The notes beneath the pieces were generated by a model. That model was not told where the DNA came from and made no database searches. It was given only the letters and a program-made list of their open reading frames with translations. Of a stretch of 64,000 bases of DNA, positions 12,958-61,800 are shown in pieces. Origin of the DNA: Deuterostichococcus epilithicus. Lineage: Eukaryota; Chlorophyta; Trebouxiophyceae; Prasiolales; Stichococcaceae. Positions within the stretch are counted from its first letter, which is position 1; each line of letters begins with the position of its first letter. Location: NCBI GenBank assembly GCA_033439295.1, contig JAVTLE010000023.1:3818530-3882529 (forward strand), read 5' to 3'. Position numbers and translations under genes: made by a program.

Positions 12958-15900
12958 ATGAGCTCCGATGACGACGACCTCAACAAGGAGCTGCTGCAAG
13001 TGGCCGGCGGCCGCAGCACCGGCGGCAAGCGCGGCCGACCCGCGGCGTCTGCGTCAGAGGAGGCGTCACTATCAGAGGAGGTGAGCGCGCTGCGTCCGAG
13101 GCGGACAGCGGGCAGCCTGCAGACCTGCCCCGCAGGGCACGCGCAGGGCTTGCCTTTGCTGGATTGGTGACCGCTTCTGTCATGGGCATGCACTCCGCTT
13201 GTCCCACGTCCGACCCCGACGCAGCGGTCAACCAGACAACGGATATCTGACACATCTGCACACGCGAACAGGCGCTGGGGGACTCGGACGATGAGGGCTA
13301 TGGCGCCTCGGGGGGCCGCGGCGGCGGCGGCGGCGGCAGGAAGCCGCCGCGCAAGAAGCGCGCGCCGGCGCCGGCGTCCCCGGAACCGGAAGACGACGAT
13401 GCCTCAGAAGGCGAGGCGGACGACCTGGACGCCTTTGAGGACGGCTACGGCAGCGACCTGATGGGCGACGACGAGGACAGGTGGGCTCCTTTGGATAAAT
13501 TTTGACCTCTGCACTTGGAAGGTCTTCAGGGTAGACCTGGAAAAGTCGCGGACATGCGGGTTCAATGGGTCTCATGGTGGCACGGGGCATGCTGCCCTGA
13601 GCCTGGGCGGCCCGGCACCCTCGCATTATGATTTTGAACATGCAGGGGATGTGATGGCATGCCGCTCTGCACATCAAACCAATCAAACCTTGTCCTCCTG
13701 CTCTGTGCATGCCGCCGCCCCGCCCTCGAGTCCTACCCTTGGGCCCTGTCCTGGCCTCCGCGGGCCATCACACCCCATCTCGAACTTTGCACAGGGCGCG
13801 CCTGAACGCCATGAACGAGCTGGACCGAGAGATGGAACTGGCGGACAGAGCGGAGAGGCGCGATGATGCGGTGCAGCGGCGGCAGATGCTGCAGAAGCAG
13901 CAGCAGCAAAAGGCGCCCGCCCGCAAGGTCCGCTCAGGCTGCACCCATCACGTGGAACCTGACAGCCACACGGAGCGTCGTGCGGCTGGAACGCAATAGG
14001 TCTGCAGCAGCCGCCGGCACCTCGAGGCACAGCACGCCTCTCATGCATGGTCACACGCATGCCACATGCACGTGCCAGCGCACCTGACCGCTGAGGCATG
14101 CAGAGCAACGAGCCGCCGCCGCCTCATGCCAATCGGCGTCATGGTTCGGCCATCGCCCTGCACCGCAGCCGGTGCGCAGCGCAGCGCGAGCATCGATGCG
14201 GGTGAAGAAGCCGGACAATCGCGCCAAGGCCAGCGCCATGGAGGAGCTCAGGGCCGCCCGCGCGCGCAAGGCGCAGCCCCGCAGGTGCTGCCCATCAAAC
14301 CCTGCCGACCAGAAGAGCTTTCAATCAGCCACCTTGAGCAGCGGCTGTGTAAAGTGCGATGCAGTCTAACCACCCGGTTCGACGTGCATCTTCAGAGTGG
14401 AAAGCTCTTTTGAGGCGCAGCCATCAGCAGCCATCGATGGCAATTAGCAGTCGTTGGCAGTGGATCCACGTTATGCCGGCACGGAGGCGGCGGCGCAGGG
14501 CAAGAGCGGACGCGCAATTGGATGACTTTCGACTGATGGCTAGGCGAGTTCAGGCCCTGTATGCCCCAGCGGGGCATCCTGTCCATGTTGCGACGGCAGG
14601 GAGGTGGCGACAGCGCAGAAGTGTGAGAGCAAGTCAAACACTCGCCATCGCTTGTTTCATCCACCCCTTTCAACATTTTTGTATCAACCACTCATATCCT
14701 AGCGGCAGGGAGGCGGCGCAGCAGGAGTGGGAGGGCGAGTCCCCGGACGCGAGCGGCGACGAGGGGCAGGGTTTAGGCCGCCGCGGCCGGCCGCCGCCCC
14801 AGGGCCCGCCGTCCGCCTCCGCCAGCGAGGAGGAGGCGTACCCGTCGCCGGGCCGCTCGCCGGCGGCCGAGGAAGAAGAGGAGGAGGCTGACGAGGAGGA
14901 CCGCCGCCGCGACCGCGAGGTGTCCCCTGGGAAGAAATCACCTGCATGTGGTTCGACGTTCCCGCAGAGACGGGTGCATCGTTCGTCCTGCACCGCTGCA
15001 TGGCGGGGCAGTGTGGGATTCCTGGTGTGCCGTCAGTTGGGCAGGCCTGTATGTCATGAGCGGGGTCCAGCGAGGCGGGGCGTCGCAGTGCGCATTTGGG
15101 CCATGACAGGACACAGGAAGCGCACGGATCGGGTGTCCTAGTCGTCTTCGAATGCACATCATGGTTGCCTGTCTGTCTGAACCCTCTGAACCCATGCACC
15201 AGGACGATGCGCTTGAGGAGGCGGCCTTCGAGGACGTCGGCGCCATCTGCGTGCGGCGCCACAAGCTGGAGGCGTGGGTGTCCAAACCCTTCCTGGAGCG
15301 CGTGCTGCCGGGCTGCCTGCTGCGCCTGTCCCTTGGCGAGCGCGCCAATTCGAACGGGGTCCTGGCACCCGTCTACATGCTGGCCCAGGTGAGCCCCGGA
15401 CCACCGGAAACCCAACCTGTCTGTCCGCGCTGCTGTGCCCTCCTCACAGATGCTACGAGCTGCGCGTGAGTCTGCGCATTGCTGTCTGTGCGCTTGAGGC
15501 ACTGAGGTACACGGCCGCGTGACTTGCATTGGCATGCTGAAGACAGCCACGCCAGTCCCACTGTTAGCACGGCGCCCACCCTGCAGTGATGCGGACACAA
15601 CGCCGCCGCGCCAGTCGCCCAGTTGCTGTTCCGCCTGTGCGGCAGGTGATCGAAGTGGAGACGCAAACAGGGACTCGGGTCAGGTGCGTGCCCCTCGTGG
15701 CCCCGGTGTAGCGCCGCCGACATGCGCCAAGTCGCATCCCTGTGCCTGTGCGGCTCGGTGGCCACCTGAAAGCAGTGTTCCCCCAATCCGAGCCGAGACT
15801 CTGCAAGCAAGAGCAACAGCCTCCGCGGCTGCTGACCCGCTGTCGACCATGGGCTGCCATCGAAAACGTTGCACCCGGCGCGCCAGGGATGCGACCGGGC

Positions 15901-18900
15901 GCGGGTGGGACAACCCCTACAAGTTCGGGCCCAAGGGCGCGCGGACAAACAAGTGGGTGAAGGTGCGGCGGGGCGACTCCGAGCGCCTCATGCCTCTCGC
16001 CCTCGTCTCCAACAGCAGCCCCACGGTGCGCCACCCGCCGCGGAGATGCGTGACCTCCCCAGGTGCCAGGAGTAGAGCGTCCAACTTTCTGACTTGCGTT
16101 TGATGTTGACATATGGTTTTGGAACACGGGTAGCATCTGAACCACCTGCCGCCTGCGCCGGAAGAGTCGCTGCTGTGGGGCGACACCTCAAGTTCCGGTG
16201 GAGGTTCTGCAAATCTGGGGCGTCTGCGGGGCGCCCAGGACCGACCAGGCGGCAAGAAACCTTGTCGTTGCAGGGTACATGAGGACACACAGCTCATCAC
16301 GGCTACTGGATCCTGGTCTTGGGGCAGCGTGCCGACTCCAGCGTCAGCCAATACTGCCGTTAGCGCTGGCGATTCTGCCGAAGTGACTCTTGAACCAGCC
16401 TTGTCGTCGCTGCGCAGGAGGAGGAGTGGCAATCGTGGCAGAAGGAGGAACACAAGGCTCAACGGCCGCAACTCACCAACGAGGACGTCACCAAGGCGCG
16501 CCAGCGGCTCGTCGACGCCGAGACGTGCGCCCCTGCTCCACCCTGCTGTCGGCCTGATGGCCGTGACTGTAATCGCGTTCTGGCCCACTGCCCGTCCGAG
16601 TGGCGCCGCGGCAGCCTGCAGCCGGCGCCGCAGCTCTAGGGCGGCGCCTTGACAGCGCGGCTCGCCCCCAAGCTGCTGCTTTGCACCCTCGTTCATGCTC
16701 GTCGCTCTCTTGAGTCAACCTCTCGATCGCTCTCCCTCATTAATCATAATACCATGACTATCGTGATGCCCCGAAACCCAGGTACAAGTCCTCCTCGATT
16801 TGCTTCCTTTTCTGAAACATGTTTTCTCGAATCGCAGGTACAAGTTCACAGCGGAGGATGTGCAGCGCATGGTGGAGGAGAAACGGCAGCGCGGCGGCCG
16901 CAACACCGCCGCCGAGCGGGCGCGCCTCGCCCGCGATCTGCAGTACGCCCAGGAGCAGGGCGACCCTGACGAGGCCGCACGGTGAGAACATCTCATAACA
17001 GAGGAAAAAGCTCAGATATACTTCAATATGATGCCTCTCATGAGGGGGTTCTGGGCTTTACCAGCGAGAACAAGCCACATCCTGATCCTCAATCAGCGCA
17101 GCCCGGCTCGGCCTGTGCAGCCTGCCTCCTGCTGGCTGCAGCGGCAGAGACTGCCATGTCTTGGCGGGAAGACGGCACCTTGCATCACCCGGCATTGCCT
17201 CGCATCGCCCTCCGACGACTCAGCACCGCAACCCGCCACTTGGACGAGGCGGCTACAGGGCAGTTCCAATGGGTGGGCAGTCCTGCCGGCGCAGTAGAGC
17301 TGCCCCCTGTCGACGTGCTTGCCTGCTCGTCCTGTAGGCTGCGGGAGGTGCTGGCGGGGCTCGAGCCGCGTGCCACGACGGAGAAGTAGAGAAGCTACAT
17401 GTATGTATCAGCAGCCCCCACCCCCACTCCGGAGAGCCCAACAGGAGATCGCAACAAGCCATTGTTGCACACCCGCAGGCTGCAGGAGGTGCTGGCGGCG
17501 CTGGAGGCACGCGCCAAGATGGACGGCGAGCGCGCCAACCGCATGTCCATGTCCGCCATCAACGAGCGAAACAAGGCGCGTTCCGGGCAAACTTCATGTG
17601 TCACACATGAAGTTTCGATCAACATCGACTTCGCCCAGCGCATCGAATTCTGCCGCCCCCTTTGCCCTGGTCGCCATCCTGGCACCGCGACCTCAGTGCC
17701 AGGGCCTGCACACCGCGTGTTGAGGGTCACCCGCCCCCTCTCGGGCATCAGGGTCCACAGCCGCGCCACGGCTTGGCTGCAGCCCGGGCTGGCCGTCCTG
17801 CGCTTGGCTGGTGTGTCGATGCGCGCTTACGCTGCTGCCGGGGCCCTGACCCCTAATCTCAAAAAGCAGGGCGTCAACTTCCAGAATGCGTTCAAGGACG
17901 TGTCGGCGCGGCCGGAGGGCTCCCGCATCGACGCCGCCGGCAACGACCCCTTCTCCCGCCGCAAGACCGAGTCCCGCAACTACTGGGCCACCCGCCGCAA
18001 GGGCGCAGGTGCGGGCAACAGGGCCGGAATCAGGCGGGCTTGTGCGATGCCGCATGCGCCGCACGGCATGCTGCTGCTTGGTTGCATCTAACTTTGATCA
18101 AAGCGTCCGCCTGCGATGCGCGCAGCCTCATGAACGAAGTGGCACTTGCACGACCGGCTGCTGATGCACGAACGACTGCATCACCACGGACAAGAGCAGC
18201 CATCGTCGGCCAAGCCGCTGCCGCAACGCACCTCGCTCTGGATCCGCCTTTGCTTGTGGAGCCCTTTCTTAGCTGTACTCCCGGTGGTTACACAGGCGAG
18301 CAGGTGGCGGAGGACGCTGCGGCCGCTGGCGAGGATGCGGCGGCGGCGGCACTGGATGTTGAGGGGGAACTCGAGCCCGACACACCGGCGGCTCGCGCCC
18401 ATCAGGTGAAGGCACTGTTTCTGTTCAGAAAATGCCGCTGTGGCTTGTTGAAGGCTTGTCTCCAAGAGAGCACGACTGCTCGGACCATGCTTCGAAGTTG
18501 GGCGCCCTGGAGCCTTCATGAGAGCTCACGGACCCATGCGGCTGCATTGGTGCGCCCAGTGCCGCGCTTCGTGACACGCCATCGACCTGAAACGATGTCC
18601 GTGGTCGCAACAGCGGGTTTTGCCCGCCTGCGCCGCTGTCACACTGCAGTTTGGGAACATGTCACGTAGCGAGGTGCGCAAAGCAAGAGATCAATGCAGC
18701 CACGCCCTCCTCACCCCCCGGGCCTCGATGCCATAGCGTCGTGCCACAGCGCTTACTTTTTCCCGCAATTCCCATGAGAGACAATTTACTGTTGGGTCGT
18801 GTCCTTCTTTCAGCGCCATTCCAATGCGCATCCTGGATATTCCTTCTGCCTCTGTTTCAAGCCCTTGCAAGACCCATGTGCAGGCCGGCGAGACGGGGAT

Positions 18901-21639: not shown

Positions 21640-34386
<12,747 letters not shown>

Positions 34387-36662: not shown

Positions 36663-36694
<32 letters not shown>

Positions 36695-42279: not shown

Positions 42280-45200
42280 ATGGCCGCTGACGCCGTTGCC
42301 GAGGCGGCGCGCGCCCAGACGGCACCTGAGGGCCGGGACATCATGAAGTCGCCGCAGGACCGACGGCTGTACAGGCAAGCGTCACAGCACATCCTACGCT
42401 TCGCATGACGATGCAGGAACGGCGATGGTTGCACTGATGAAATATCGGTAACATCTTGACAGAGGCTCTTGTAATGGTTCTGCTGCATGTATGGCCATCT
42501 AGTGCCGCTCATGCATTTCAGGCATTCATCATAAGATGTCATCTATCAACTTGACAGCGACTCTGTGCTAATTTACCTACAGGCGTATCGTACTGTCGAA
42601 CGGCTTGACGGCGCTGCTCATCAGCGACCCGGAGATGGCTGACGCCGTCGCTGCCACGAACGAGGCGGATGAGGATGGGGAGGGTGCCGGCTCCGACTCG
42701 GATGACGGCAGCGACGAGGTGGGAATAGAGTGCCGGCTCGAAGCTTCATCGAATGTGGTGATGCTGCGCATGGCACAAGTGTGCCGTTCGCCATCACCCA
42801 GCAGGCGAGCTGTGTCCATGAGCGCAGGCCTGGCTCAGGGTCGCATGCATGTGCTGTATCCGTAGGACGATGACGACAGCGGCAGCGAGGAGGGCAGCGA
42901 CAGCGACGGTGGCAGCGACGCATCGCCTGGTGCACCGAAGCAAGCAGCCAAGAAGGTGGGTTGAGGGTTCCGGAGACTGCTGTCCGTCAACTTGTGGTGC
43001 CACGCAGTGCCGGCATGCTGCAGCAATGCTGCGACTGTGTGATGTCGCTGGCTGTGAAAGCAGGCCTATGCCAGAGACCTACGCCATTTTCGCGACCATT
43101 CTGGGCGGCTGTTGCCATGAATGCGCGATGCACAGGGCCCGGGAGCTGCAATGTGTTGCAGTCCCCGGGCATAAGAACCATGTTCTGTGTCATGCTTTCC
43201 CTTTTCTAGAAAGTTGGACACTGATCATGCTTTCGCTCTGCAGGCCGCGGCGGCGATGGCAGTGGGTGTCGGCAGCTTCAGCGACCCGTTGGAGCTGCAG
43301 GGACTGAGCCACTACCTGGAGCACATGCTGTTCATGGGAAGCGGGAAGTACCCGGACGAGAACGACTACGACGCCTTCCTGGCGAGCCACGGCGGCGCCT
43401 CCAACGCCTACACCGAGCTGGTGCACCCTTTATGTTAGGAAAAGTCTTCACCACCACCCAAAGATCGCCTGGCAGGATTAAGATCTTGACGACCTGTCAG
43501 AACGACCGTCAGGCTGGCTTCTCAGCCTGGTGTTTCAGCGCAGATCGTTACATGCCAGGAATTGTTCCCATGTATGACAGAGCCAATCTGGATCAGCTCC
43601 GCCAGGTTTGTCTGCGCTGGGTTGCAAAGGGATGCGCCTGATGCTTGTGCCATGTGGCGCTAGTGATGCACGCCTGGCGACCCTCGCAGTCTGACACCAA
43701 CATTCGAGTTGCAGGGCGGCACCACTGCTCCGCCACTTCAATCCTTGCATGATGCGCGACTCTGTCTCGGCGGACGTCGCACAGTTTATGCGATTCGGGA
43801 GCTTCGTGCACTGCAGGAGTTCAACAGATATTCGTGTGGAGCGTTTCTGTCGTGCCACTGCTGTATCGGCAGATGCTGGCACTGATCGGTGTAGGAGCTG
43901 ACGAATTTTCAGTGATCAACTGCAAGCCAGAGGCGTTGCTCGGCGCCGGAGACTATCATGTCACAGCCATTCTTGCAGTTGATACTGGTTCCGATTTCCG
44001 CAGGAGCTGACAAACTACCAGTTCGACTGCGAGCCCAAGGCGCTGCACGGCGCCCTGGATCGCTTCGCCCAGTTCTTCCTGGATCCGCTGTGCAAGGCGG
44101 ATGCTCTGGAGCGGGAGGTGTCTGCCGTCGACAACGAGTTTGCAGGTGTGTGTGTTTGCGCGCCGCTGAGAAGTACTGCGAACCCTGCAAATACCTCCAG
44201 GGCCAGGTGGTGACAGCTGCTTGCTGTGCACTGCGGCGCGGCAGCAAACTGGTGGGTGCAGCTCCCTAAATGTTCCTTCTGAAGTGAGGCTCGCTGAAGG
44301 TCTGCTGAAAAATCACTGCTCCATTCAGACACTCGTCGAATGGAAGGCATCATTCCGGCCTGCAGGCGTGCTGCAGAGCGATGCGTGCCGCGTGGCGCAG
44401 CTGCGGTGCCACACTGCGGCGGCAGGACACCCCTTCACCGGATTCTCGTGGGGCAACCGCAAGAGCCTGTGGGAGGCGCCGCGCGCTGCCGGCATCCCCA
44501 TTCGCGACCGCATTGTCGACTACTACAAGTGCGCGGCTCCGCTGCCTCGCACCTTCCTCCCGCCTCATTTCTTGAGAAATTTTGGTGGATCGGGGAAGCA
44601 GACCCGTTTGGAGAGGCGGCAGGGCTGTATGCTGCCAGCAGGGCTGTCCGCACATGGAGGTGCCGGCTAGCGTGTGCATCCTGTTAACAGCCTGTCGAAG
44701 GAACGTGCTGCCAACTTCAGATTGTCAGCCAGGTAAACGACAGTCTCACCACGCCCAGAAGATTACAGTCCGTAAACTCTCAACCCCTCGGCCCCCCGCA
44801 GGCGGCAGTACAGCGCGGAGCGCATGTCGCTGGTGGTGCTGGGCGGCCACGATCTGGACACCCTGGAGCAGTGGGCGTCCGACCTGTTCAGCGGCGTCCC
44901 CGCCGGCCGCGGCCCCCGCCCCGAGTTCAGCTCCGCCGGCCTGCCCTTCCAGGTGCTGTAACATGCATGTCAGCCTTGGAATATGCAGACCCACCTGTCA
45001 ACCCGGTGCTCAGGGTCCCACCTGGTTGCTGTGACCTGCTGTGGTGCGACGTGCAGGACCTTTGTGAGTTCTGCTGCCAAGCTGCCATCGCGGCAGACTG
45101 CCCCCTCTGTGTCTAGCTGGGCGTCTGCAGCGGCGTTCTGCATGTGCAGCGCTGCCCATGCTGCTACGACAAAGCACCGGCTGCACAACGCATCCTTGGT

Positions 45201-48200
45201 CAACCTTTACGTGCATGCTATGCCGCAGGGCGGGCGGTTGTACGGCATGCCGGCGGTGAAGGACGTGCATAACGTCACCGTCACTTTCCAGCTGCCCAGC
45301 CTGCAGGCCGCCTACGCCGCCAAGGTGCACCGCCTGGTCCTGCGCAACCTGGTGCTGTGTGCTCGCCCTCAGCTCCCCGCCATGCTTGCGAATAAGCAAC
45401 CGACGATTGACACGTTTTGCTCGTCATCGGTGCTGGTCGTCCTGCCCAGACGGCGCCTCACCTGGCTGCCATTGCGATCGCAACACGGGACGGCTATTTG
45501 CTCTCGAATGTTGCCCGCAGCCGCCCGTGCGGCGTGCTTTGCCAGCAGCAGTGACATTGGTGCTCTCTGGCCCTGACACCGTCTTCAACACCTGCCACCA
45601 GCCTGTCGTTTGTGCGCTGCCATGCCGCACGGGGATCGTGCATTCCATGTGGCGCCTATTTGCCGCAGGCGGACGAGTACCTAGCGCACCTGGTCGGCCA
45701 CGAGGGTGCTGGCTCCCTGCTGTCCGCCCTCAAGGTGGGGCCCGCAGCTCAGCCACTGCACTTTTCAGAAGTCGCAACGGCAGGTCCGTGAATGACTTGC
45801 CTGCAAGGGACGCACCCGCACACTTCAGAGCTGCCACATTCCACACCGGAGCTGCGGCGTGCTTGATTCTCACCTGCAGCCTGTCTGCCGGCCCGGCTTG
45901 CGAGCTCAATCCCGACATACTTCGTGAACAGTCGCCGCCCCGGCCTGCGTGCAGCTCTGGAGGCGGCAGCATCCCGTATGCCGGCTGAACATGCTGTGCT
46001 GTGGGTCATGGGAAATTAAAGGGGATAAATTATCCCCGTTGCTGTGGGACACAGGCGCGCGGCTGGGCCACGGGGCTGTCTGCGGGCGTGAACGAGGGCG
46101 GACACGAGCGCTCCTCGGCGGCGTGGCTGTTTGACGTGACCATCAACCTCACCGACGCGGGGCTGGCGGCGGGCCAGGGCGCCGGCCTCGGTCCCGTCGG
46201 CCTGGTGTTCCAGTTCCTCAACCTGCTGCGGAGGGAGGGCCCCCAGGGGTGAGTCGCCCTGAACCCTGAGTCCCAAACCCTCTCCAGGCTGGATCCTGGA
46301 TCGGGGGCGTGGCGCAGCCTGGACTTGGATCCTGGCAACACCCTTGCTTCAGGCAGAGCTCTCAGCGGATGTCTGCGCCAGCCGGCGGTACAGGCGCTGC
46401 ACTAGTCACTTGCGCCTTGCCGACCCGAGACCGGGGCATCCCGGAACCGGGCAAGTGAACCGAAACTGGATCTGCTCTGCAAGGTAATGAAGATATTTTG
46501 TTTTATCTTCTGCAAGGTATCCACGTGAGGACTGTCCTCTGATGTTTTTCAGGTCCTCTGATGTTGTTCAGGTGGGCATTCGAGGAGCTGCGAGACATCG
46601 CGGAGATGAAGTTCCGCTTTGCAGAGGAGGAGGACGCCTGCGAGTATGTTACCCGCCTGGCGGCGGAGCTCCACCTGTACGCGCCCGCGCATGTGCTCAA
46701 GGTGGCGTTCAGTATTGATCCTTTGTGATCGAGGTTTTCTACTTTGCGAGCTTTGATGCACACCTGCACTTGGACTTGAGGATACAATGCCGGGGGCGTC
46801 AGCACGGGAGCTGGTGCATGAGCCTGACCGCACCCGCTGAAGTGCCTGGCCGGCACCGGTCTCCTGCTGCCGGAGCGCCGCGCTGGGGCATCCGCGTCCG
46901 AACCCTGACGGCGGCAACTCCAGGTGCTGACGCCTGGCCAGCCGTGACTGGGGCTCTACAGGGCGCCTGGGTGTTTGGCGAGTGGGACGAACATCTGGCC
47001 GGCTGGCTGCTGGGGCTGATGACGCCCGGCAACGCGCGCATCGACGTCCAGAGCACTGAGTGGGACGATGTCCGCGCCGTCATCGGGCAGGTGCCGTCGC
47101 CAGCCCCTCGTCCCTGGCCACCCGCTCGCTGTCAGACCTGCCACCACCAGGCGCCTGCTCACGCGAGATGCCTGGCGCGGCCGTCGGCACAAGCTTATCC
47201 TGGCCCACGCGGGACCTTACCAATCCTAAGAGACACCCCCGAAAGGACAGCGCAGCCTCGGCCAATGGATCAAGTACCTCCCGCAGATGCCGGGCGCGGC
47301 CGTCGGCACCGAGCCCTGGTTTGCGCTGGACTATGCGGAGGCGTCGCTGCCGCAAGAGCTCCTGGAGGAGTGGGCGTCCGCGGCGCCGGCGTCCGAGCTG
47401 GCACTGCCAGCGCCCAACGCCTTCATCGCCTCCGACTTTGCGCTGGTGGCCGACGCGGGCGGTGCGCAGCCAGGCGGGCCGGCGGCTGGCGGCGCGGCTG
47501 CCAACGGCGCGTGGCACCCGCAGGCAGGCCAACATCGTGCACACTCGGCCCCATACCGTGCTGTGGCACCAGCAGCTTCTGCTCCGCACCTGCATGCGGC
47601 GGCGCACCCGGCAGCAAGCCAAACACTTGCATGTTGACATCACCGGTTGCGCACCGCCGTTGCCAGGCCTGCACGTCATCGTGACCATGCCTGAATCTGG
47701 TAGTGTGCCGTGCGCCGCAGACGGCGCCGTCGCCGTTCCCGCAGCCGCCGGCGCTCGCGGCGGAGGCCGATGGCCTGCGGCTGTGGCACAAGACGGACGC
47801 CGCGTTCCGGGTGCCGCGCGCCACCGCCTGCTTCCTGCTGGCATCGCCTGCGGCGTACACCTCGCCCAAAGCCGCCGCACTGACGCACCTCGCCGTCAAG
47901 CTGCTGGAGGTGACCCTTGGCATCGAAGGTCGTTGGTTCGCTGTGTCATCTGTAACACGCCAGCAGTCCCGGAGAAGAAGGACCTCCTGCAACACACACC
48001 CTTGAGCGGCTGCGCCAGAGTCGTCTCGTAGGCCGCCAAGTCTTGTGAGGGGGCGGCGTGCATGAGGCGCATCACGCTACTTCTGCGCTTGCCATCCCGA
48101 GCGGCGCACCTGCAGAGTCGCCTGTGCTGCCACCCTGCAGGACGCGCTGTGCGAGACGGCATACCAGGCGGAGGTGGCGGCGCTGACGTGCGAGGTGACG

Positions 48201-51200
48201 CCCGAGGGCGCCGCGGGCCTGTCGCTGCGCCTCGAAGGCTTCAGCCACCGCCTGCCCGACCTCGCGGGCGTCGTCTTCCGCACCCTGGCCACGCTCAAGG
48301 CGCGCGCAAGGGGGATCGTTGACTTGGTTTCCCTTTGTCCGCGCACGCTCATGCCCCCTGGGGTGCCCTGCGGCAAGTCGTGCGAGCTTTCCCACCGCGA
48401 CCCCATGCAGAACGGCACCCACTGTCACATCACTGAGATGGCGAGGGGCCGGGCTTGGACCCGCCGGCTCGCCACCGTTCCTACCCCGGCTGGGCTTTCA
48501 AACAGTGCTTATCGAAACCCCGCTGCCGCCCGCGCCGGACCCGATCCTGGACGGCCACGTGACTGCACCGGCGCCTGAAGCGCAGTCCGCCATGCATACG
48601 TTCTAAAGAACGTACCCTAAACCCAATCTACAAAACCACCATGCGGCACAGGTGGAGGGCACGGCGTTCGGGCGCGTGCGCGAGGCGCTGGCGCGGCGCT
48701 ACCGCAACGCCAACATGCGCCCAGAGCAGGCGGCAAACTACGCGCGGCTGTTCGCGCTGCGCTCCGCCATGTGGCACGTCGATGCAGTGCTACCACACCT
48801 GGATGCCGCGACCCCGGCGGACGTGCAGGTGTGTTTTCCGGACTGTATGCGTTGACTTGTGTTGAGCCTTTGTTGCAGTATGTGGTCGGACCCTGCCGTG
48901 ACGTGTGGCCCTAATGTCGGCGCGATGCTGCCGCGCCCAGGGGCCGCTGCCCCCGTGGACACATGTTCCAGGCCGTTCTGGTGCCTCGCACTGGAGCCCC
49001 TGCAGGGACGCCTCGTGGTTCGTGCTGGCGTCCGCGCATCTCGCGTCAGCGCCCGGAGGCGCTGTAGCACAGCAACTTGGCAGGCCTCAGATCCCACAAA
49101 CCATGCCATCCTGAGGCCACAAGTCTGGAAGCTGGATTTCTGCACCCCCTCCGGGAGCATCCGGCCGCGGCCGCTGGCGTCCACGCACCTCAACGCCACC
49201 GCTGCGCGGCGACAACTCTGTGTCTGAAACCGCCTCGCACGCACATTCTAGAATCCGGGACCCTCGATTCACAGAGGTCGTTCCTCCTTGCAGGCCCACC
49301 TGGCGGCGGTGCTGGCGTCCACCACGCGCCGCGAGGCGCTGCTGCACGGCAACAGTCTGGTGTCCGAAACCGTTTTGCACGCACTGTCGGATCCGAAACG
49401 CTTGTTCCTCCTCGCAGGGCCACCTGGCGGCGGTGCTGGCGTCCACGCACCTGGAGGCGCTGCTGCACGGCAACCTGACGGCCGCGCAGGCGCGGGGCGT
49501 GGCCGACGGCGCTCGCGCGGCNCTCGGCGGCGCGCCGCTGCCGGCTGCGGAGCGGCCGGTCGACCGGGCGGTGCAGCTCCCCTCCGGATCCACGCTGTAC
49601 AGGTGTGTGTTGTTGTACAGGTGTATATTTGTTTACAGGTGTTTATTGTGTTGTATGAAACAGCTGTACAGGTGCCCAGCTGAAGCCGATGGCTGCTGCG
49701 TGAGGTGGTCGGTTGCGCACAAAAGCAGCAGGCCAAGGCGGCGCTGTCGCGGCATGTGTGCCGCCTCTCTGGCGCACACGTAAGGTCAGCTCGGGTCCTT
49801 TGGTCCCTCTCAAATCACATCGAACACAGAGACTTTGCTGCACACACAGCGGAGAGGACAACAACATGACGGAGCGTCCTGATGCTGCCGAGTGCATGCA
49901 CAACATCGTTTGCATAAACCCTAATGAAAACATCTACCGGTGTCGCCGCAGGGCGGCGGCCAAGAACGGGGAGGAGGACAACAGCGTGACGGAGCTGTAC
50001 CTGCAGGCGGGCCCAGACTCGGCGCAGGAGCGCGCCCGCGTTGACCTGCTCGAGCAGGCGCGGCCTTGCCAGGGTTTAGGATATTGTTGCCAGGGTTTAG
50101 GATATTGTCGCAAAGCTTCCTGATTCTCCCTGTCTCGCGTGGCGTGCGCTGTGCCCTCTTGCGGCGTCCTGTACCGGCGCCAGCGGCGGGTTGCACGGAT
50201 GCAGCCACGGACAGTTCTGATGGCGCTGCAGGAAACTTCGTTATGGCGCCGCAGCCTCTGTGATGTTCAAACAACCTTGTGCAGCGTCGCCGACTGCCAG
50301 CGCGGTGCCGCCCGCAGGTGGCGGGGGAGCCGGCGTACGACACGCTGCGCACGAAGCAGCAGCTGGGCTACTCGGTGCACGTCGGCACGCGCCTCACGCA
50401 CGGCGCCCTGGGCTTCTGCGTCACCGTCGCCTCAGGTGCGTGTTTTCCTCCCATGCTGCCGGCTGCCCAGATCCTCAGGCTTCCTGCTGCTCATGCAGAC
50501 TCCACTGCCCAGTCTCCTTGAACATCGCCAGACGGAGGTTCCCACGCCGAACCTTCCCTGACACCTTGGACTCGGCTGTTGCGCCCATCCATCTCATCTG
50601 CTTCTTGCGCGCACAGGCACGCACGGCCCTGCGGAGCTGGAAACCCGCATCGAGGCCTTCCTGGTGGGCTTTGCTGAGACGCTGGCGACGATGCCGGCGG
50701 ACGAGTTTGCCCGCCACCGGGGCAGCCTGCTGGCCGCCAAGCTGCAGAAGGACCGGTCCCTGGGGGAGGAGGCCGACCGCCACTGGGGGGCCATCTTCGA
50801 CCGCAGGTGGGCTTCTTGGAGGGATCGAAAAGCGCTGGGGGGCGAGAGCGCGCAAAGGCTCAGCTTGCTGTCGCCGGGGGCCGATCGCTGCTGCGGTGTC
50901 ATGTACGACTGCAGGCGCGGGGGATGCCTGTCTGTGGAGGAAAACCTTCATCAGACAGCTCGGAGGGGGCGCCAGCGCTGCGACGCAGCCGAGCCCCGCC
51001 CATGACCTGCAGGGCTGCGGGCTGCTTGCTGGGCGGGAAAGAGGGCGGGCCGTCGGTCAGCAGGCTGCCTGTGACGCTCTGGTCTCGCCAGCCGCAGCTG
51101 CGACCATGCCTCATGCAGCGGACAGATCCAAATCTGTCAAACATGCAGGCCTCCCAGGCTGATGTGCCATGCGCCTTCCTGCTTCTCAGGTACAACTTCC

Positions 51201-52808: not shown

Positions 52809-53218
52809 GTTTTGCCGCCAGCATGTACGGACAATGTAATGGCGGACATCCTGAGTGCATCGGATTCACACACGAGAGCCAAGATGCATGCTGTCGGCAG
52901 CGATGGTGGCAGTAGCAGGTCCAGGCATGGAGTGGCAATGGACTACATGTCACCACATGGTGTTCTGTTATGAACTGATGAGGAGTCACCACAGTCTTCT
53001 TTGGCGGCGGCGGTAGGTATTTTTTTTCAGCACAACGTACACAACCTTCATGGCCGGGGCAGGCACTGCGGCTGCAGACAAAGCACCCATCATTTGCTAC
53101 ATGCATGTCAACAACGTTGCTGCGCACGTGACGATGGGCGCAGCCGCACCGGGCCCGCACGGCTCGGCAGAGGATGTGCTGGTCTGGCAGGGCGTTCACG
53201 GTCTATGGCGCCAGGCAG

Positions 53219-55024: not shown

Positions 55025-58000
55025 ATGCGCCACCATCACTGCTGGCAACGGCTCTCTTGTGCACATGCCAGGCGCGCTGCGGTGGCCGGCTGCGCGGCAG
55101 GTCTGGCGCCCGTGCTGGCGCTGCATCCACTGGACGTCATAAAGACGCGGCTGCAGGGTGAGCTTGCCGATGCAGTGGCAAGCAAAGCTTTGCGGGCGCC
55201 TGTGCACCTCGAGCGCACGCACCAACAGACGCGGCGGCCGTGGGACGGCGGCGGAGGCGAGCCGATTGTTCCTTGCTGCGGCGCCGTGTTAAGGGCAGCC
55301 ACCCGTGGCAGGCGCGGCACACCACATGAGGCTCGTGCAAGGTCCTCGGGCTCACTCCTCGCAAGAGCCGCACAACGCTGGTATGAGGACCAATCCTGCC
55401 TCCTGTCCCCTGCAGTGCAAGACGGCGTACGGGGCGCGCTGCCGCTGTACCGTGGCGTCTCGGATGCAATGGGCAGCATGGTGCGGCAGGAGGGGTGGCG
55501 CTCACTGTACGCTGGACTGACGCCCGCGCTTGTGGGCGCAGGCGCGCACTTCCATCCCCTGGTGCCTCAGCAGATTGAAAATGTTAATCAAGGGCCTGGT
55601 TAGGCAGCTGGGCTAGCGGCCACGCCTGTGGGTGCATGCGAGGGTCCCAAAATACTCACTCCTTCCGGCTTCAGCACCCTTTCGAAGAACGAATGGTTGA
55701 ACAAGGCATGGCGTGGAAGGCGGACTGACGCCCGCACTCGTGGGCGCAGGAGCACCGTGCAACCCTGGTTATGTACCTCATGCCTGCTGTTGCGCTCAGT
55801 ATGTCCTGTCCAACCCACAATAGGTCGAGGCGTATCGTGGCAACAGCAAAAACTGATGCCTGCAATAGTCTGCTGGACCGGGCTGGCACCGTCGCGTGCG
55901 AAGGCATGTCCTCCAACGCCCACCCTGCGTCTGGTGACGGTGTGCGCCGTCTGTGCAGGCATGTCGTGGGGCATCTACTTTGCGGCATACAGCCGGGCCA
56001 AGGCGCGGTACCAACGCCGCAGCGGCGCCGCCAAACTGGGCCCAGGGATGCACCTGGCAGCGGCAGCAGAGGCGGGCGCGCTGGTGAGAGCATTCCATGC
56101 CTGATGTTTCGTGCTTAATCCCTTGGAGGGGAAGGACTCCGGAGACAGGCTTAAGGCCTCTCTGGGCGACCGGACATAGAGCGGGCAGAGCGGGCACTCC
56201 TTCCTGTCTACATACCTTTGACAGCTGCAACTCTGCAGCGCAATGTTTCGGATCTGAAGCAGATCCTGCCGGCGACTGGCCGTCATATCTTGGAGCTGGT
56301 TGCAGCGCCAGCCCAGGAAACATGTGTGTCGCTCTGCCGCAGGTGTGCTGCGTAACCAACCCCATCTGGGTTGTCAAGACCCGACTGGAGTTGCAGCGGG
56401 GGGCACGCATCGCAACAGCCACCACCGCTGCGGCGCCAGCGGCGGCTGCCTCAGTCGGCCAAAAGGTGAGGCCGCCGGCACGGCACTGAGCCGCAGCACG
56501 TTCTTCCAGGCGGCTGACCTTGCGCTTGCTCCTCCCAAAGCACGTCGCAGCAGGACCAATGTGGCATACACCATGCCTCCTCTGCGTTAGCTCTATGGTG
56601 CTACTGACACCAGGCAGCGCAGCGTGACTGTCAAACAGCCTGCACAAGACTAGCCCTCACGTGCCAAGTGCGCCTTGTCCGGATTCAGGCTGGCAGGGCG
56701 GCGCTGCCGCCATACCGCGGCATGGTGGATGCAGTGAAGCAGATCGCTCGGGAGGAGGGGCTACAGGGCTTCTACCGCGGTCTGGGCCCCTCGCTGCTGC
56801 TGGTGCGTTGTCGCCCTGGGCACCAGGCGGTTCTTTGGCTGAAAATCTAGGAGCGGCACCGGAACACATGACTCTGACTACATCTTCCTGCATGGTGTCG
56901 CACAGCGCCGTACAGTTCATGGACTCTGAGGGGCTGCGGTTCAGATGACCAATGTTCCGTTCAGTCATCATCCCATCGCCGGTCGACTGGATCACAGGTG
57001 TCACACGGCGCCATCCAGTTCATGGTCTACGAGGAGCTGCGGTCGCTGGCGGAGACGGTCGGCGGGCCGCCGGAGCAGCGGCAGCGGTGGGCCGACTGGC
57101 AGGCGCGGCATGCGGGCGGCAGGGTGGCAGCGGGGTCGAGCGGGCGGACCGACGAGGCGGCCGGGCCCTGGGGCTGGCGGCGGCGGCGGGCGGCCGGGGC
57201 AGCGGAGGGCTGCGCACCACCGCCGCTGCGGCAGCCGAGCAGCGCTGAGATCGTGGGCATGGGCGCGCTGTCGAAGCTGGCGGCATCTGTCATCACCTAC
57301 CCCTCGCAGGCAAGCCCTTCTGTCACGACCGAAGAGGCTGGCTCATGGCAGCCTTATCCATGGCAGCCATGAGCCATCTCGTGCTATATTCTGTGGTTGA
57401 GCTCCGCCAAGTCCCAGCTGGCGGCGTCGGCCATCATCCACCTCTCGCAGGCAGGTGTTACGTAGAGTGTTACGTGAGCCACCTCCGGCTAGCCTGCTGC
57501 ACCTCTGCGGTTGTGCTGCAGAGCTTCGGCAGGACTCACAGACCGCTGTCCAAGCTGGCAGCCTTCGTGATCACCTGCCCAATATAGACAGGGCTTGCCA
57601 CGGACCAACCGTGCACTTGTGCAATTGATGCTGTGGCTCTGACGGCTGTGCACTGGTACAACCGCAGCAGTGGATCCCTGCCAGGCGCTGCGACCTTGGC
57701 GCAGCCGCACTCTCAATGTGGCAATGTCTCGAGCAGCCGCACTTCCAACACGGCAACGCCATCTGCGTCAAGTCCATGCACGGCAGCAGTTCAATGTGCT
57801 CGGGCCCTCAATATGCGCAGGTGGTGCGTTCGCGGCTGCAGCAGCGCATGGCGCGACGTGCGATCCGCTACCGCTCGGGGTGGGACGTGCTCCGGATCAC
57901 TCTGCGGCGGGAGGGCGTCGGCGGCCTGTACAAGGGGCTGCTGCCCAACGTGCTGCGCGTTATGCCTCAGGTGCGGTGCCCAGTGTTTGCAGTGACCCTG

Positions 58001-58382
58001 TGTTGCGGCGGCAGTATGCGCCGATGGATGTCGATTTGCAGCTGGAAGTAGCAGAGGTTAGTGTCCAAGCAGGCGCTGCAAATGCTAGGCAGCATGCACC
58101 AGGCGTGCCACAGGATGTCCACAAACCATACAACGCAATTCCTGCAGGTGCTGATTAATATCGTGGATGACGCTCTTTGACCGTGCTGCGCAGGCTGCAT
58201 CGACTTTCCTGGTGCCAAAGGCTGTCCACGAAGCATACAGCTCCAGCTGCATCTGCTCCTAAATATCGAGGATGACGCTCTTTGACCGTGCTATGCAGGC
58301 CGCAATGACGCTGCTAGTGTACGAAACCATGATGAAGCAGCTGTCTGCGGCGCAAGAGCGGCCACAGGCCCTGGAGAAGTGA
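55025..58382 (+). CDS. mitochondrial-carrier-family protein, SLC25A32 folate/FAD type
   Basis: A six-helix inner-membrane (or plastid-envelope) carrier with three repeats. Repeat 1 has AAVAGCAAGLAPVLALHPLD followed by VIKTRLQ, then YRGVSDAMGSMVRQEGWRSL and YAGLTPALVGAG, and GMSWGIYFAAYSRAKARYQ (55968). Repeat 2 has VCCVTNPIWVVKTRLELQRG (56344), YRGMVDAVKQIAREEGLQGF and YRGLGPSLLL, then VSHGAIQFMVYEELRSLAET (56998). Repeat 3 has LSKLAASVITYPSQ joined to VVRSRLQQRMARR (57820), LRREGVGGLYKGLLPNVLRV, and AAMTLLVYETMMKQLSAAQ. The motifs PLDVIK, PIWVVK and PSQVVR, with Trp and Gln in repeats 2 and 3, are typical of folate, FAD and pyrimidine-nucleotide carriers; HGAIQFMVYEELR favours the folate/FAD branch. 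Repeat 2-3 has a long basic/Ala-rich insert (about 57090-57240). The ATG at 55025 is the first in frame. One intron uses CAG/GCAAGC. Confidence 0.85.
55718..55760 (+). repeat. ghost copy of a carrier exon 3' end
   Basis: GGACTGACGCCCGCACTCGT, then GGGCGCAGGAGC, compares with the real exon end at 55513-55545 (GLTPALVGAG). Two of 28 bases differ in the core. The copy lies downstream by about 206 bp. Confidence 0.88.
56895..56944 (+). repeat. ghost copy of the carrier HGAIQFMVYEE exon start
   Basis: It reads VSHSAVQFMDSEGLRF against VSHGAIQFMVYEELRS in the exon at 56998, without any gap. The offset is 103 bp. No AG precedes the copy, so it is not a good acceptor. Confidence 0.88.
57401..57585 (+). 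repeat. two ghost copies of the carrier exon end LSKLAASVITYPSQ
   Basis: The source is 57269-57309. Copy 1 (57401-57455) keeps AGCTGGCGGC, ATCATCCACCTCTCGCAGGC and more; copy 2 (57545-57585) keeps CTGTCCAAGCTGGCAGC and GTGATCACCTGCCC. Both are downstream of the source, spaced about 135-140 bp. Confidence 0.85.
58153..58215 (+). repeat. recent ghost copy spanning intron and start of the last carrier exon
   Basis: The copy matches 58258-58318: GGATGACGCTCTTTGACCGT is identical and the next bases (GCTGCGCAGG against GCTATGCAGG) carry the acceptor. After the splice site the match decays (GCTGCATCGACTTTCCTGGT against GCCGCAATGACGCTGCTAGT). The offset is 105 bp. The intron part is better conserved than the exon part. 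Confidence 0.9.
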
Positions 58383-58808
58383 TAGGTATCCTGTTTCCAA
58401 CAACGGACCATGCAGAAAGCTTTGATGTGCGAAACAGAACGGGTTTGTCCATATTTAATTGAAAGCCATATTTTCAAGCTAGGGGCGGAGGCCAATTGCA
58501 TTGGTGCTGCGAACTGCAGACACGCCCACAATCAATGGATATTGACCAAGAGAGGGATCAGCCACAATCTGTACCTGAGACAGCAAGAAGTGCACGCTTT
58601 GAACAGCGTCAACTGCTGGCGGCATGACAGGGAAAGGGCCCTCCCCCCCCGTCTAGGCCGTTCCAGACCGCGAACTGCTCCCCGCAGCCATCCGCACACA
58701 CTCTGCGGGACAGGCAGCGGCCCTAACGCTACTACGCATCGATTGACTGCCGCTGCAGCCGTGCGGGGCACTAACACTGATCTCCTCCTTAGGGACCCGA
58801 CTGGCACC
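58383..58808. other. convergent intergenic region carrier/glycosyltransferase
   Basis: The 426 bp contain only 3' flanks. No other feature was seen. Confidence 0.5.
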
Positions 58809-61800
58809 TCACTCGATCTTATTTTCGCAGTTGAACTGAAAGGGACGGCCCTCGAACTGGCCCAGTGTGACATAGTGCTCCCACAGCTGCACCGGGTCCC
58901 GGATATGCTTGAGGTCCGCATTGTGCGTTCGGTACAGCTCCACGTCAAAACATCGCGACCCTCGCGCCCGGCTGTGCGAAAAAAGGAGAGCAGTGATTCA
59001 GCAGCTGCGCCGTCGTGGCAGGCAGACTGAAGCAAAGTAAATGCAGTTTGCGCGGTGCGACGGCTGAACAGTGCTGTCTGCATGCATGCAGAATGGATGT
59101 CTGCGACATGGCAACCATGCAAGCGACAGGCACAGGACGAGAGCACGAGAACTGCAGTGGCCCTGCTGCAGAACAGTTCATGCCTTCTGTTCTTGCCGAG
59201 CCGGCAGTCAGTACACATGTCGCACCTGTAAGCGATTTTGGCCGCCTTGAGCGGCCATGGATTCGACTTCCAGATGTTCTTCACCACGTCCGCATGCCCC
59301 TTCTTTGCCTGCAAAAGGGACGGTGATCATCTGCAAGCTGCCGCCTTGTCACAACACTTCGAAACTCAGTTTCCAAAGCCTCCAAGGGTGGCACGTCAAA
59401 AGTCTCATACTTCATTGCTGCCTATAAGAGGCTGGCTTCTTAGTTGAGAAGTCAGTCCTGGGGTCACAGGGGCCGCTTGCGGCAGGGCGGCATAAGGACT
59501 GGTGAGAGGCGCACCCGTTCCGTGTACCACTGGTCGTACTTGATAGCGGTGCGCGCGTAGGACCACTCGTTGTGCAGCAGCACCCCCTTCACCTTGACGA
59601 ACATGACCTCGAAAGGCGTCAGGCTGATGCCATCGTAGTAGCTCTCCCCATACGGGTTCACCCTGCAGTGCAAGGCAGTCACTTTTCAATCCGTGGCCAG
59701 CAGGCCCAAGGTCGGGCGTCAGGCTGGAGTCACTGTAAAAGCTCTCCCCCCGCATGGGGTTTTCAACCTGCAGCGCGGGTTACAGCAGGACATTGGTCTT
59801 AGTTTGATTGGTCTTAGTTTGAAGGCAAGTCGTGACTTTTCCACATCCCCTGGAAGGGGGTCAAGCAGATGCCGTCGTAGGAGCTCTGCCGGACGGGTGC
59901 TCCCTGCAAGGTGGGATGTGTGCCGGCGGCAAACATGCCACGGAGAGGGCGTCAGGCTGATACCGAGGTGAACCCTCCCGGACGATTCCGCGCCCGCCGC
60001 ATCACAGAGGGGGAGTCCGGCTTGTATCTACAGGCTTGTTGCCATGTTGTGTCGGTTTTGAGGTTGGGGCGAGTGGCCGCACACCTGGAGTTGCACTCCC
60101 AGTTGGCCTCGTTGGTCCAGTCCACGTCCTGGTACCGCACCATGAAGGAGTCCAGGTTGTACCCGCCGCGCAGGATGGCCAGGCTACTGCCCAGCTCGGA
60201 GTAGAAGATGGTGTCCCACATGTTGATGTAGCAGGCGAACACCTTGCCATCGTCCTGCATGAGCTTCAGGCCGACCTGCGGGGTGGCAGGGTTGTGATAT
60301 GGGGCGTCAGCAGCGGCGGCGGAAGGGTCTTGCTTGGGTCGTTTGGGGCTGGGGTCTCTTTGCGACGCGCATACAGGGTGTGTCGAACCCCGCGCCCGTG
60401 AGAAGCTGGGGCAAGGGTGCCGCGAGCGGCGCACCATGCGGCATGCAAGCCGCTGCCGGCAACCGTCGCCGCCGGCGGCGCCGCCTCTCGAGCAGCTGCC
60501 TCCCTCCTTTCGACTGAGCATGCAGATTACAATTCCGTCTCGTTGCTGACCCTGCAAACCAACCAAAGTTCGGCAGCGACTCGCCTGGTCGGTGGCCAGC
60601 ACATAGGACTGCACGTGCGGGTTGGTGCGCCATTCGCCGTCGATGTTGCCGTCTTTCGGGCTGCCCTCGCAGCTGATGGTGGGTCCCACCAGTTTGACCT
60701 TGTCCGTTATCCGCGACACGATCTGCTCGTGCCACCGCTTGAAGCCCTTCGCAAAGGGGCATGCCAGGGAGTCATTTCACAAGTAGGATCGCACAGGCTA
60801 GATCCAGCGGCGGGGCAAGGTGCCTCTCAGGGGCCGGCGTCGCACACATGCACCCGGGCAGGGACGGCCACAGCTGCCGCAGGTCTCGCACTCATGCAGA
60901 GGTTTGTCACTGTTATTGTCACTGTTAAATGGCGCCAGCAGAAAGGTGCATATCAGCCATGCTCTGACCTGGCCATAGGTGGGGATGAAGGGCCCCCGCA
61001 CAGAACTGTTCATGAAGATGAAGAACTTGTATTTTGACGTGTCCACCTACGGCGTCAATGACGACAGTGAGGGCGGCAGATGAGGGTTTGGTGTGTCTCG
61101 GCATGCATGGCACATGACCGATGCCCCGATTCACCGATGCTGATGCGTCAGGGCGGGGCGGCCAGCGGACATACAGCGGCGTGGACGGCCACCTACCTTC
61201 TTCGTATCGAACAGCCAGCCTATGGTGCCCCAGTCGTAGCAGCCATTTTGGTGCCGCTCCACCCGGGCATTTGGCGGCAGCTTCCCTGTCAGGTCCGGCA
61301 TCTGCATGCGGCCAGATCATCAATGCAGCAAAAATATGAATGCTTGAAACGACTCAGTATCAGAGCCTCTATACCTTCGTTCCACATGGATGGAGCAGAA
61401 CGCATGCTGCTGCTGCCGCACACAGATCTGGGCGGGATGCACGACAAAAAGACGAGCACTGCATACCTGCACGCCGTCCATGTCCTGCATTATGAAGACG
61501 TAGTCGCAGCCGTCGTTTTCTTGGACACCCCACTTTAGGAAGAACATCAGATTGTCCTCATACTCGGTGTCGGTCTTTGAGAAAATGTAGACCACCAGCG
61601 TGTGTGCCGCCTCCGGTCCAGGGCTGTGCGCCGCAGTGAGCTGGTCTGCAAGCACTGCCTGTGCGCCTGGGGGTGCGCTGCTGGCTGTCCCGAAGCGCAT
61701 GCCGACGATGAAGGCCAATATGAGCAGGCCAGCTCCCACGAGCAGCATCCTGTAGCGCTGCACTTTGCCGGTTTGGCTGCGGGTGGGTCGCATGTTACGC

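Follow-up and report, generated by a model that had tools for sequence, protein, structure and literature searches.

Intron growth is commonly attributed to transposons, and introns are also said to be created by tandem genomic, or internal gene, duplication, reportedly by Gao and Lynch in 2009 and Hellsten in 2011. In the sections of PMC3443670 used here, tandem genomic duplication doubles an exonic segment containing AGGT, the copy itself becoming the new intron, while staggered-break insertion leaves direct repeats on both sides of an insert, with organelle DNA as filler, and the insert is hidden by the spliceosome. Small tandem duplications arise when CST and Pol alpha-primase fill in 3' overhangs (PMC8355091, abstract). 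Direct repeats of 4-30 bp near intron borders have been read as insertion scars (PMC11782384, in the excerpt used), and nuclear plastid DNA insertions, in which organelle DNA fills breaks, are described as few in most algae (PMC7037861, likewise in excerpt).

Many longer introns of the green alga Deuterostichococcus epilithicus hold a decaying copy of the neighbouring exon edge, referred to here as a ghost, and these exon-edge copies are real and genome-wide. They are most likely scars of DNA-break repair, by which an intron is lengthened without harm to the protein, and on balance they are probably a variation on the known break-repair insertion in which duplication of an exon edge lengthens existing introns and does not make new ones. 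Staggered-break insertion, as presented in those sections of PMC3443670, has in common with the ghosts the break, the flanking repeats, the organelle filler and the hiding of the insert by splicing; its repeats are short and yield a new intron, whereas here 23-87 nt of exon are duplicated and the event would strike an existing splice site, extend an existing intron and leave an exon-edge ghost. Tandem genomic duplication in the same source shares the duplicated exon sequence, one copy of which is spliced out, but no such introns stood out here and the spacer between ghost and exon lies mostly outside the duplicated unit. CST and Pol alpha-primase likewise duplicate sequence at a staggered break, although the abstract of PMC8355091, unlike the present case, makes no mention of filler DNA or splice sites. 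The repeats in the excerpt of PMC11782384 are also splice-site direct repeats taken as insertion scars, but they flank whole introns, donor against acceptor side, whereas here an exon edge is repeated inside the same intron. Organelle filler is shared with the plastid insertions of PMC7037861, as excerpted; here it consists of 45 nt between two exon-edge copies.

The window, i.e., the whole stretch of 64,000 nt under analysis, was studied together with 20 stretches of 10 kb from the same genome (264 kb in total, the genome of 46.8 Mb being about 177 times as large), in which a gene finder trained on these data predicted 417 exons and 375 introns. Exons were compared with adjacent introns of up to 1500 nt at a raw score of at least 40, or at a looser cut of at least 36. 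The predicted pyruvate kinase model aligned without gaps to a relative's protein over 466 of 466 residues. MMETSP1473 we take to be Stichococcus sp. RCC1054. One locus, L015, is a set of tandem paralogues supplying three of the 37 matches at the looser cut; it was retained in the overall donor tally, the intron length histogram and the tallies per junction side, gene piece and locus, and excluded from the codon-position and frame counts, the tandem simulation, the pair-HMM and the outer-flank, intron-similarity, spacer, GC-donor and later tests. The pair-HMM set comprised 29 pairs with an edge distance of at most 6 nt, the intron-similarity and two-ghost sets 24 pairs with, in addition, an offset of at most 180 nt, and the spacer GC and repeat-family sets the 23 of these 24 whose spacer was long enough. 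Another locus, L016, contains a long repeat outside predicted exons and was for that reason rejected as a recent-paralogue gauge of the intron rate.

Across the sample, a direct exon-edge copy was found in the adjacent intron in 31 of 728 pairs at a score of at least 40, against 1 of 728 for the reverse complement, 2 of 728 for reversed sequence, 0 of 728 for introns of other genes and 3 of 628 for the next intron within the same gene. The degenerate direct copies reported in a preliminary description of the window, which proposed scanning exons against their flanking introns with controls, thus appear as a same-strand, adjacent-exon excess over the 264 kb. At the looser cut, similarity begins within 6 nt of the exon edge in 30 of 37 matches, and four of the remaining seven reach the edge with gaps on reading by eye. 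Identity is 70-96%; the offset, first given as mostly 100-160 bp, is 82-161 nt in 26 of 37 and falls short of the intron length in all but one of the 37, an L015 paralogue match. Besides the window, 10 of the 20 sampled loci have matches, including the L015 set. Where the preliminary description suggested that most long genes are affected, the share of junction sides with a copy is about 4-5% at these scores, and at least one copy is present in 16 of the 29 gene pieces that have five or more introns. Acceptor-side ghosts do usually keep their own AG (12 of 19), and GT or GC is kept in 7 of 10 donor-side ghosts.

Among 192 junction sides tested in the window, 16 matches were found: seven in SNF2, three each in the nardilysin-like and carrier genes, and one each in RTF1, pyruvate kinase and a gene called glycosyltransferase in the preliminary description, for which Pfam gave no family over most of the predicted protein. 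All six genes named there therefore contain copies, while the more than twenty copies claimed become about twenty when extra members of the array at 24461-24932 and a second copy near 59.7 kb are added. The features are as follows.

17338..17382, plus strand: ghost derived from the 5' end of RTF1 exon 17479-17575 (82% over 45 nt), in-frame TAG next
24574..24932, plus strand: tandem array of ~107-nt units after SNF2 exon 24357-24516, a true tandem duplication with intron sequence included
25844..25914, plus strand: ghost derived from the 5' end of SNF2 exon 25971-26101 (80% over 71 columns)
26380..26453, plus strand: ghost derived from the 5' end of SNF2 exon 26536-26700 (75% over 84 columns)
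27226..27278, plus strand: acceptor-side ghost, at offset 107, derived from the 5' end of SNF2 exon 27347-27472 (88.9% to 27333-27386 over 54 columns; exon part 92.5%)
27285..27329, no strand assigned: plastid-derived filler between this ghost and the SNF2 exon (87% over 45 nt, E 1.9e-7)
27333..27386, plus strand: functional copy, 14 nt of intron and the start of SNF2 exon 27347-27472
27543..27593, plus strand: ghost derived from the 3' end of SNF2 exon 27347-27472, with a GC donor and spacer 27473-27542 (94% to 27406-27456)
30543..30626, plus strand: tandem-type ghost derived from the 3' end of SNF2 exon 30358-30492, including ~31 nt of intron, GC donor (85.7% over 84 nt)
31634..31665, plus strand: ghost derived from a portion of the 5' end of SNF2 exon 31746-31952 (84% over 32 nt)
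39524..39572, minus strand: ghost derived from the 5' end of pyruvate kinase exon 39277-39436 (88% over 49 nt)
43895..43947, plus strand: ghost derived from the 5' end of nardilysin-like exon 44004-44145 (77%), stop in the exon's frame
47168..47190, plus strand: ghost derived from the 5' end of nardilysin-like exon 47287-47523 (96% over 23 nt)
49851..49881, plus strand: ghost of part of nardilysin-like exon 49952-50057 (85% over 34 columns), stop in the exon's frame
55722..55749, plus strand: ghost derived from the 3' end of carrier exon 55416-55541, with a GC donor (93% over 28 nt)
56895..56940, plus strand: ghost derived from the 5' end of carrier exon 56998-57309 (83% over 46 nt)
57416..57450, plus strand: ghost derived from the 3' end of carrier exon 56998-57309, with a GC donor (83% over 35 nt)
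59843..59898, minus strand: ghost derived from the 5' end of 'glycosyltransferase' exon 59515-59662 (77% over 57 columns)
within the spacer of ghost 59843-59898: second, closer ghost of exon 59515-59662, offset 100 (score 35)

The SNF2 ghost at 27543-27593 differs from 27406-27456 at three positions and gives the same peptide. A genome search with the ghost part of 25844-25914 returned no further match among the matches listed.

The ghost evolves neutrally beside a constrained exon: differences between the two fall on the codon positions as 78:73:119, with a stop in the exon's frame in 6 of 34 ghosts and a net frameshift in 11 of 34. The copies span splice junctions and, as the preliminary description had proposed, one copy is kept by splicing in the predicted models while the other decays. 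Its claim of a continuous process fared less well; since near-identical copies are few, a steady process is not shown. Lengthening of introns was correctly foreseen, ghosts being present in 27 of 60 introns of 380-700 nt (11 of 26 at 380-450 nt, 12 of 21 at 450-550 nt and 4 of 13 at 550-700 nt) versus 4 of 238 under 320 nt (2 of 88, 0 of 89 and 2 of 61 in three length classes). With the offset subtracted, ghost-bearing introns have a median of 340 nt and ghost-free introns one of 250 nt. A GC donor occurs in 7 of 12 introns with a donor-side ghost versus 25 of 329 ghost-free introns (p = 2e-5), and in 5 of 35 ghost-free introns of 380-700 nt. When donor and acceptor neighbourhoods were compared with each other, no clear sign of intron gain by tandem genomic duplication was seen: matches of at least 30 were found in 0 of 23 introns of 80-140 nt, 0 of 30 of 140-180 nt, 0 of 63 of 180-220 nt and 4 of 119 of 220-320 nt (1.3 expected), the last appearing GC-rich or repetitive by eye.

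The spacers are diverse and 32-140 nt long, and the spacer lies mostly outside the duplicated unit. The exon part of the duplicated stretch varies from 23 to 87 nt in the 24 pairs, and similarity extends into the intron by a median of 8-9 nt (at most 14 nt in 18 of 24), compared with a median of 4 nt and a 95th percentile of 14 nt in mismatched pairs. Some intron similarity, above the control's 95th percentile, is retained in 8 of 24 pairs. Where an intron has two ghosts, their spacing is roughly equal. In six such introns the ghosts are 71-89% alike over 9-39 nt, whereas the adjoining spacers score 10-19 against one another; the eight highest of 30 control comparisons score 14-17, so that one real pair, at 19, stands slightly above. 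Over the 23 spacers GC is 0.522, as opposed to 0.580 in ghost-free windows matched to them (p = 8e-5; the controls overlap), while the intron beyond the ghost, at 0.591, does not differ from normal (p = 0.35); spacer GC is shifted as a whole and does not split into organelle-like and nuclear-like groups. Compared all-against-all, the 23 spacers matched no better than shuffled ones and are not one repeat family, and a genome-wide search with eight spacer regions showed, among the matches listed, no nuclear repeat family and an outside source for one of the eight. An introner or transposon origin was rejected, since no repeated family appears among the spacers or the matches listed, and the exon part, at 23-87 nt, is not a short, fixed target-site duplication.

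The outside source is plastid DNA. Positions 27285-27329 match the minus strand of contig C21:32852-32896 (87% over 45 nt, E 1.9e-7), a contig of 211 kb in which the 1.2 kb around the match has 27% GC and PsbL and PsbJ lie within 0.5 kb. The fragment occupies all but 9 of the 54 nt between two repeats of ~54 nt. When the whole sample was set against 61 kb of the 211 kb of plastid DNA, no second spacer match appeared. Further plastid-like stretches occur in predicted introns at L003 2202-2243, where ARAGORN found no tRNA gene, and at L008 4727-4773; neither is flanked by repeats.

We consider it rather probable that most ghosts are target duplications that arose when staggered DNA breaks at exon edges were repaired. 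Such a break, which we infer along with the enzymes involved and the splice sites really used, would have long offset ends and straddle the splice site. Both ends would be filled in and joined around captured filler DNA (X) to give R-X-R, where R would be 23-87 nt of exon and the splice site, usually plus a few intron bases; this step is supported by the unrelated, AT-richer spacers and the one plastid insert. As the mRNA would be correct only with the outer splice-site copy, the inner R and X would become intron, which would usually gain 100-160 nt, and the event would survive only if R contains the splice site. The inner copy would then decay neutrally, and such decay, like the geometry and the longer introns, is what the copies display. 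An unrelated or foreign insert between direct repeats, the mark of break-repair insertion, is present here, with a foreign source for one of the eight searched spacers among the matches listed. Several findings count against break repair. The same process within introns should leave intron-intron pairs, and 3 were found beside 37 exon-intron pairs; in simulation the exon:intron ratio is 0.65-2.4 when divergence is 0.12-0.18 and rises to 3-6 at 0.22 and to 5-20 at 0.26, but identity at these two higher divergences is 77-80%, under the observed 83.5%. Simulated short R-X-R insertion did not reproduce the exon-only similarity and few intron-only pairs at the observed identity. Intron similarity is retained in 8 of 24 pairs, as tandem origin would give, ghost-bearing introns are still longer once the offset is removed, outside sources are few, spacer GC is unsplit, and 5 of 35 ghost-free introns of 380-700 nt have GC donors.

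Plain tandem duplication over the junction, the simplest reading in the preliminary description, would copy exon edge and adjacent intron together, the intron parts having diverged past recognition because both copies are free, or the exon parts being preserved by exon-to-ghost gene conversion. A minority of loci are indeed ordinary tandem duplications that include intron sequence (24461-24932, 30441-30626 and 58105-58304, and others in L011, L012 and L019), and the intron similarity above the control's 95th percentile and the near-equal spacing of paired ghosts also favour it. For most loci it is rather unlikely: neutral simulation on these genes left a median of 62-95 aligned intron columns at divergence 0.05-0.15, against 4 observed, and fell to 3-12 columns only at 0.30-0.35, where identity is 74-77% versus 83.5% observed; the pair-HMM placed divergence at 0.6-0.8 in intron parts versus 0.15 in exon parts; and adjoining spacers are unrelated, spacer composition is unlike the intron beyond the ghost and one spacer holds plastid DNA. 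Random tandem duplication simulated with constraint and decay gave an exon:intron ratio of 0.83-0.88 at even ages and, as with R-X-R insertion, did not combine exon-only similarity with a scarcity of intron-only pairs at the observed identity. Both simulations fit parts of the picture at divergence 0.22-0.35, where identity is too low.

Sharp ends and unrelated spacers would equally be accounted for by templated copying, through polymerase template switching or RNA-templated repair, of a short exon-edge piece into the adjacent intron; the copy would land 32-140 nt away from the splice site, and the spacer would be original intron. A perfect 31-nt copy at L017 (2127-2157/2247-2277), whose exon part apparently begins inside the predicted exon, agrees with this, but we regard it as improbable: random templates should often be wholly exon-internal, while 30 of 37 begin within 6 nt of the splice site, spacer composition is unlike normal intron near splice sites, and one spacer is filled by a plastid fragment. 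A spliced-mRNA template further predicts an outer flank like the exon across the intron; no such likeness was seen, the mean score being 11.9 against 12.8 in the control. That the ghosts are functional alternative or poison exons under selection is very improbable, as stops, frameshifts and the codon-position pattern match unconstrained sequence and acceptor-side offsets occupy all three frames, although 10 of 19 acceptor ghosts score at least 4.4 (functional acceptors average 6.8, random intronic AGs 0.1). An artefact of assembly or gene prediction can be given even less credence; ambiguous bases in the assembly and a possible collapse of young repeats speak for it, but assembly cannot make one copy decay neutrally while its partner is constrained, matches recur in the window and 10 of 20 loci (one being L015), and the pyruvate kinase exon chain is verified. 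Since copies within introns are ~10 times rarer than exon-edge copies, breaks or copying might be aimed at exon edges by a mechanism tied to splice sites, via nascent RNA, the spliceosome or nucleosomes at exons, and drive intron growth genome-wide; we hold this to be a tentative and rather doubtful idea.

Almost half of the sampled introns of 380-700 nt show the scar of one process, at ~100-160 nt per event and outside any repeat family seen, and the protein would stay untouched via duplication of the splice site. The link with GC donors points to a rule governing the kinds of duplicated donor that can be tolerated. The constrained exon partner allows the scars to be dated, so that rate, age and splice-site competition would be measurable genome-wide.

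Compared with itself at a threshold of at least 40 bits, the window contains 20 direct repeats, 13 of them at a spacing of 100-150 nt, and 4 inverted repeats. This pattern is not window-specific, because the same peak is found in a first sample of 19 stretches of 10 kb (16 of 49 direct repeats at 100-150 nt). The copies considered here, called ghosts, are decaying direct copies of an exon edge inside the adjacent intron. When exons were compared with their adjacent introns (raw score threshold of at least 40), 31 of 728 pairs matched directly, 1 as reverse complement and 2 when reversed, while length-matched introns from other genes gave 0 of 728 and comparison with the next intron 3 of 628; the same-strand, adjacent-exon excess that the preliminary description proposed to look for is present. 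The copy begins no more than 6 nt from the exon edge in 30 of the 37 matches that reach a score of at least 36. Local direct repeats (at most 400 nt apart, at least 40 bits; array members counted singly, the tandem paralogues of L015 included) joined an exon or exon edge with an intron in 37 cases, two intronic sites in 3, predicted exons at both ends in 5 and non-genic DNA in 4, all from one stretch, L007. A banded scan (at least 30) marked 39 of 618 junction sides, and internal repeats were marked in 12 of 309 introns, several of these repeats involving ghosts themselves; the shuffled control gave 0 and 1, respectively. Other repeats were recorded as follows (L numbers denote sampled 10-kb stretches; the remaining positions are in the window):

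L007 8294-8946: non-genic, palindrome-like, direct and inverted repeats together
L016 1-2206 and 7342-10000: long direct repeat, 96-98% identity, possibly a mobile element
36664-36693: CAG microsatellite
31980-32014: TA microsatellite
58105-58304: intronic tandem duplication of ~95 nt, offset 107, 80% identity, directly 5' of the last predicted carrier exon

The genome comprises 46.8 Mb in 21 contigs, with the window on C19 at 3818530-3882529. Genes were predicted with a small hidden Markov model, trained on six pieces with Pfam support, the training being run to convergence on 264 kb. This sample yielded 417 predicted exons (median 136 nt) and 375 predicted introns (median 260 nt), with a CAG/GTGCG-like donor and a GCAG/G acceptor (slash at the junction); GC donors occur in 33 of the 375 introns (9%), which is high for a eukaryote. 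The seven predicted window proteins lack stop codons, largely by construction of the models. Stronger support comes from the pyruvate kinase model, which lacks its first exons: it aligned gap-free over 466/466 residues at 94% identity to a relative's protein, named in the manner of an algal transcriptome project. A complete SNF2 domain was found in a predicted window protein, and Pfam recovered Plus-3, M16 and mitochondrial carrier domains in pieces; for the gene previously named glycosyltransferase, most of the predicted protein was compared with Pfam and matched no family. The best named relatives in protein comparison include the trebouxiophyte algae Myrmecia bisecta and Elliptochloris bilobata.

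The occurrence of ghosts (threshold at least 32) varies with intron length: 2/88 introns below 200 nt, 0/89 at 200-260 nt, 2/61 at 260-320 nt, 3/27 at 320-380 nt, 11/26 at 380-450 nt, 12/21 at 450-550 nt, 4/13 at 550-700 nt and 1/25 at 700-1500 nt, with 2 control matches altogether. Thus, of the 60 introns between 380 and 700 nt long, 27 carry a ghost. The median length of introns with a ghost is 468 nt (24 pairs); with the offset between copies subtracted, they measure 340 nt vs 250 nt for ghost-free introns, and therefore either the copies account for part of the excess or longer introns acquire more copies.

Across 34 exon-ghost pairs, differences at codon positions 1, 2 and 3 stand at 78:73:119, 6 ghosts contain a stop in the exon's reading frame and 11 a net frameshift, which fits an unconstrained copy beside a constrained exon. 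This decay argues against an artefact of assembly and equally against an alternative exon kept by conservation. Few copies are young, the clearest being a perfect one of 31 nt in L017. In L003, exon-end copies at 9767-9807 and 9894-9934 share 95% identity, and each is called as an exon with its own donor; this pair is possibly a young case with both copies still open.

The preliminary description attributed the copies to tandem duplication across splice junctions. Plain duplication would copy exon edge and intron as a single unit, and in simulations matched for exon identity the intron parts do align almost as far as the exon parts. True duplications including intron exist as a minority (e.g., 24461-24932 and 30441-30626), but most cases do not support this explanation: on the intron side, similarity in real pairs stops after a median of 8-9 nt, exceeding 14 nt in 6 of 24. 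In pair-HMM fits, exon parts diverge by ~0.15 and intron parts by 0.6-0.8; 8 of 29 pairs lie beyond the 95th percentile reached by mismatched pairs. Moreover, six introns each hold two ghosts of the same exon, and comparison of the spacers next to these ghosts gave scores of 10-19, similar to those of controls.

More probably, a staggered break was repaired with filler DNA, which would leave two edge copies around a spacer, the inner copy and filler becoming intron. Mean GC is 0.522 in spacers, 0.580 in matched ghost-free windows and 0.591 in the intron beyond the ghost; comparison of spacers gave no common repeat family. The spacer 5' of the SNF2 exon 27347-27472 contains 45 nt with 87% identity to contig C21, which represents the plastid genome because of its low GC (27% in 1.2 kb around the match, 26-29% in other measured stretches) and because PsbL and PsbJ adjoin the match. 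The fragment is flanked by two ~54-nt exon-edge copies, with 6 and 3 extra bases; to judge from its layout, this is a picture of filler captured in a staggered break. Seven further spacer regions, searched singly, gave no outside source, and a comparison covering 61 kb of the 211-kb plastid contig gave no second spacer match. Short plastid-like stretches without flanking repeats also occur in long predicted introns at L003 2202-2243 (93%) and L008 4727-4773 (79%).

In simulations of filler insertion with repeats of 40-120 nt, the exon:intron ratio rose with divergence, from 0.65-2.4 (divergence 0.12-0.18) through 3-6 (0.22) to 5-20 (0.26), so that, under this model, intron-only events should be commoner than the 3 observed. 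Given the observed 37:3, either the events are older than their identity suggests or exon edges are their preferred target; the latter, which would be the novel case, we consider rather unlikely. Published accounts treat tandem duplication and break repair as routes of intron gain, organelle filler included (reviewed in PMC3443670), short direct repeats bordering introns (PMC11782384), 3' overhangs with fill-in (PMC8355091) and organelle DNA insertions (PMC7037861); among the matches listed, as titles and abstract beginnings with subscription literature thinly covered, none describes exon-edge ghosts as an intron-lengthening route.

A branch-point-like motif precedes 9 of 19 functional and 5 of 19 ghost acceptors in ghost-bearing introns; the corresponding shares are 35% in ghost-free introns (202 acceptors) and 14% for mid-intron windows (403 windows). 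On the donor side, GC donors occur in 7 of 12 introns with a donor-side ghost vs 25 of 329 ghost-free introns (5 of 35 at intron lengths of 380-700 nt), and in 0 of 19 with acceptor-side ghosts only. Since GC was often seen at both ghost and functional donor in the pairs inspected, the GC donor is probably older than the duplication event. In the light of work on competing 5' splice sites, we propose a filter: with a strong duplicated donor, splicing would use the inner copy and the event would be lost, while with a weak one it would use the outer copy and the event would persist.
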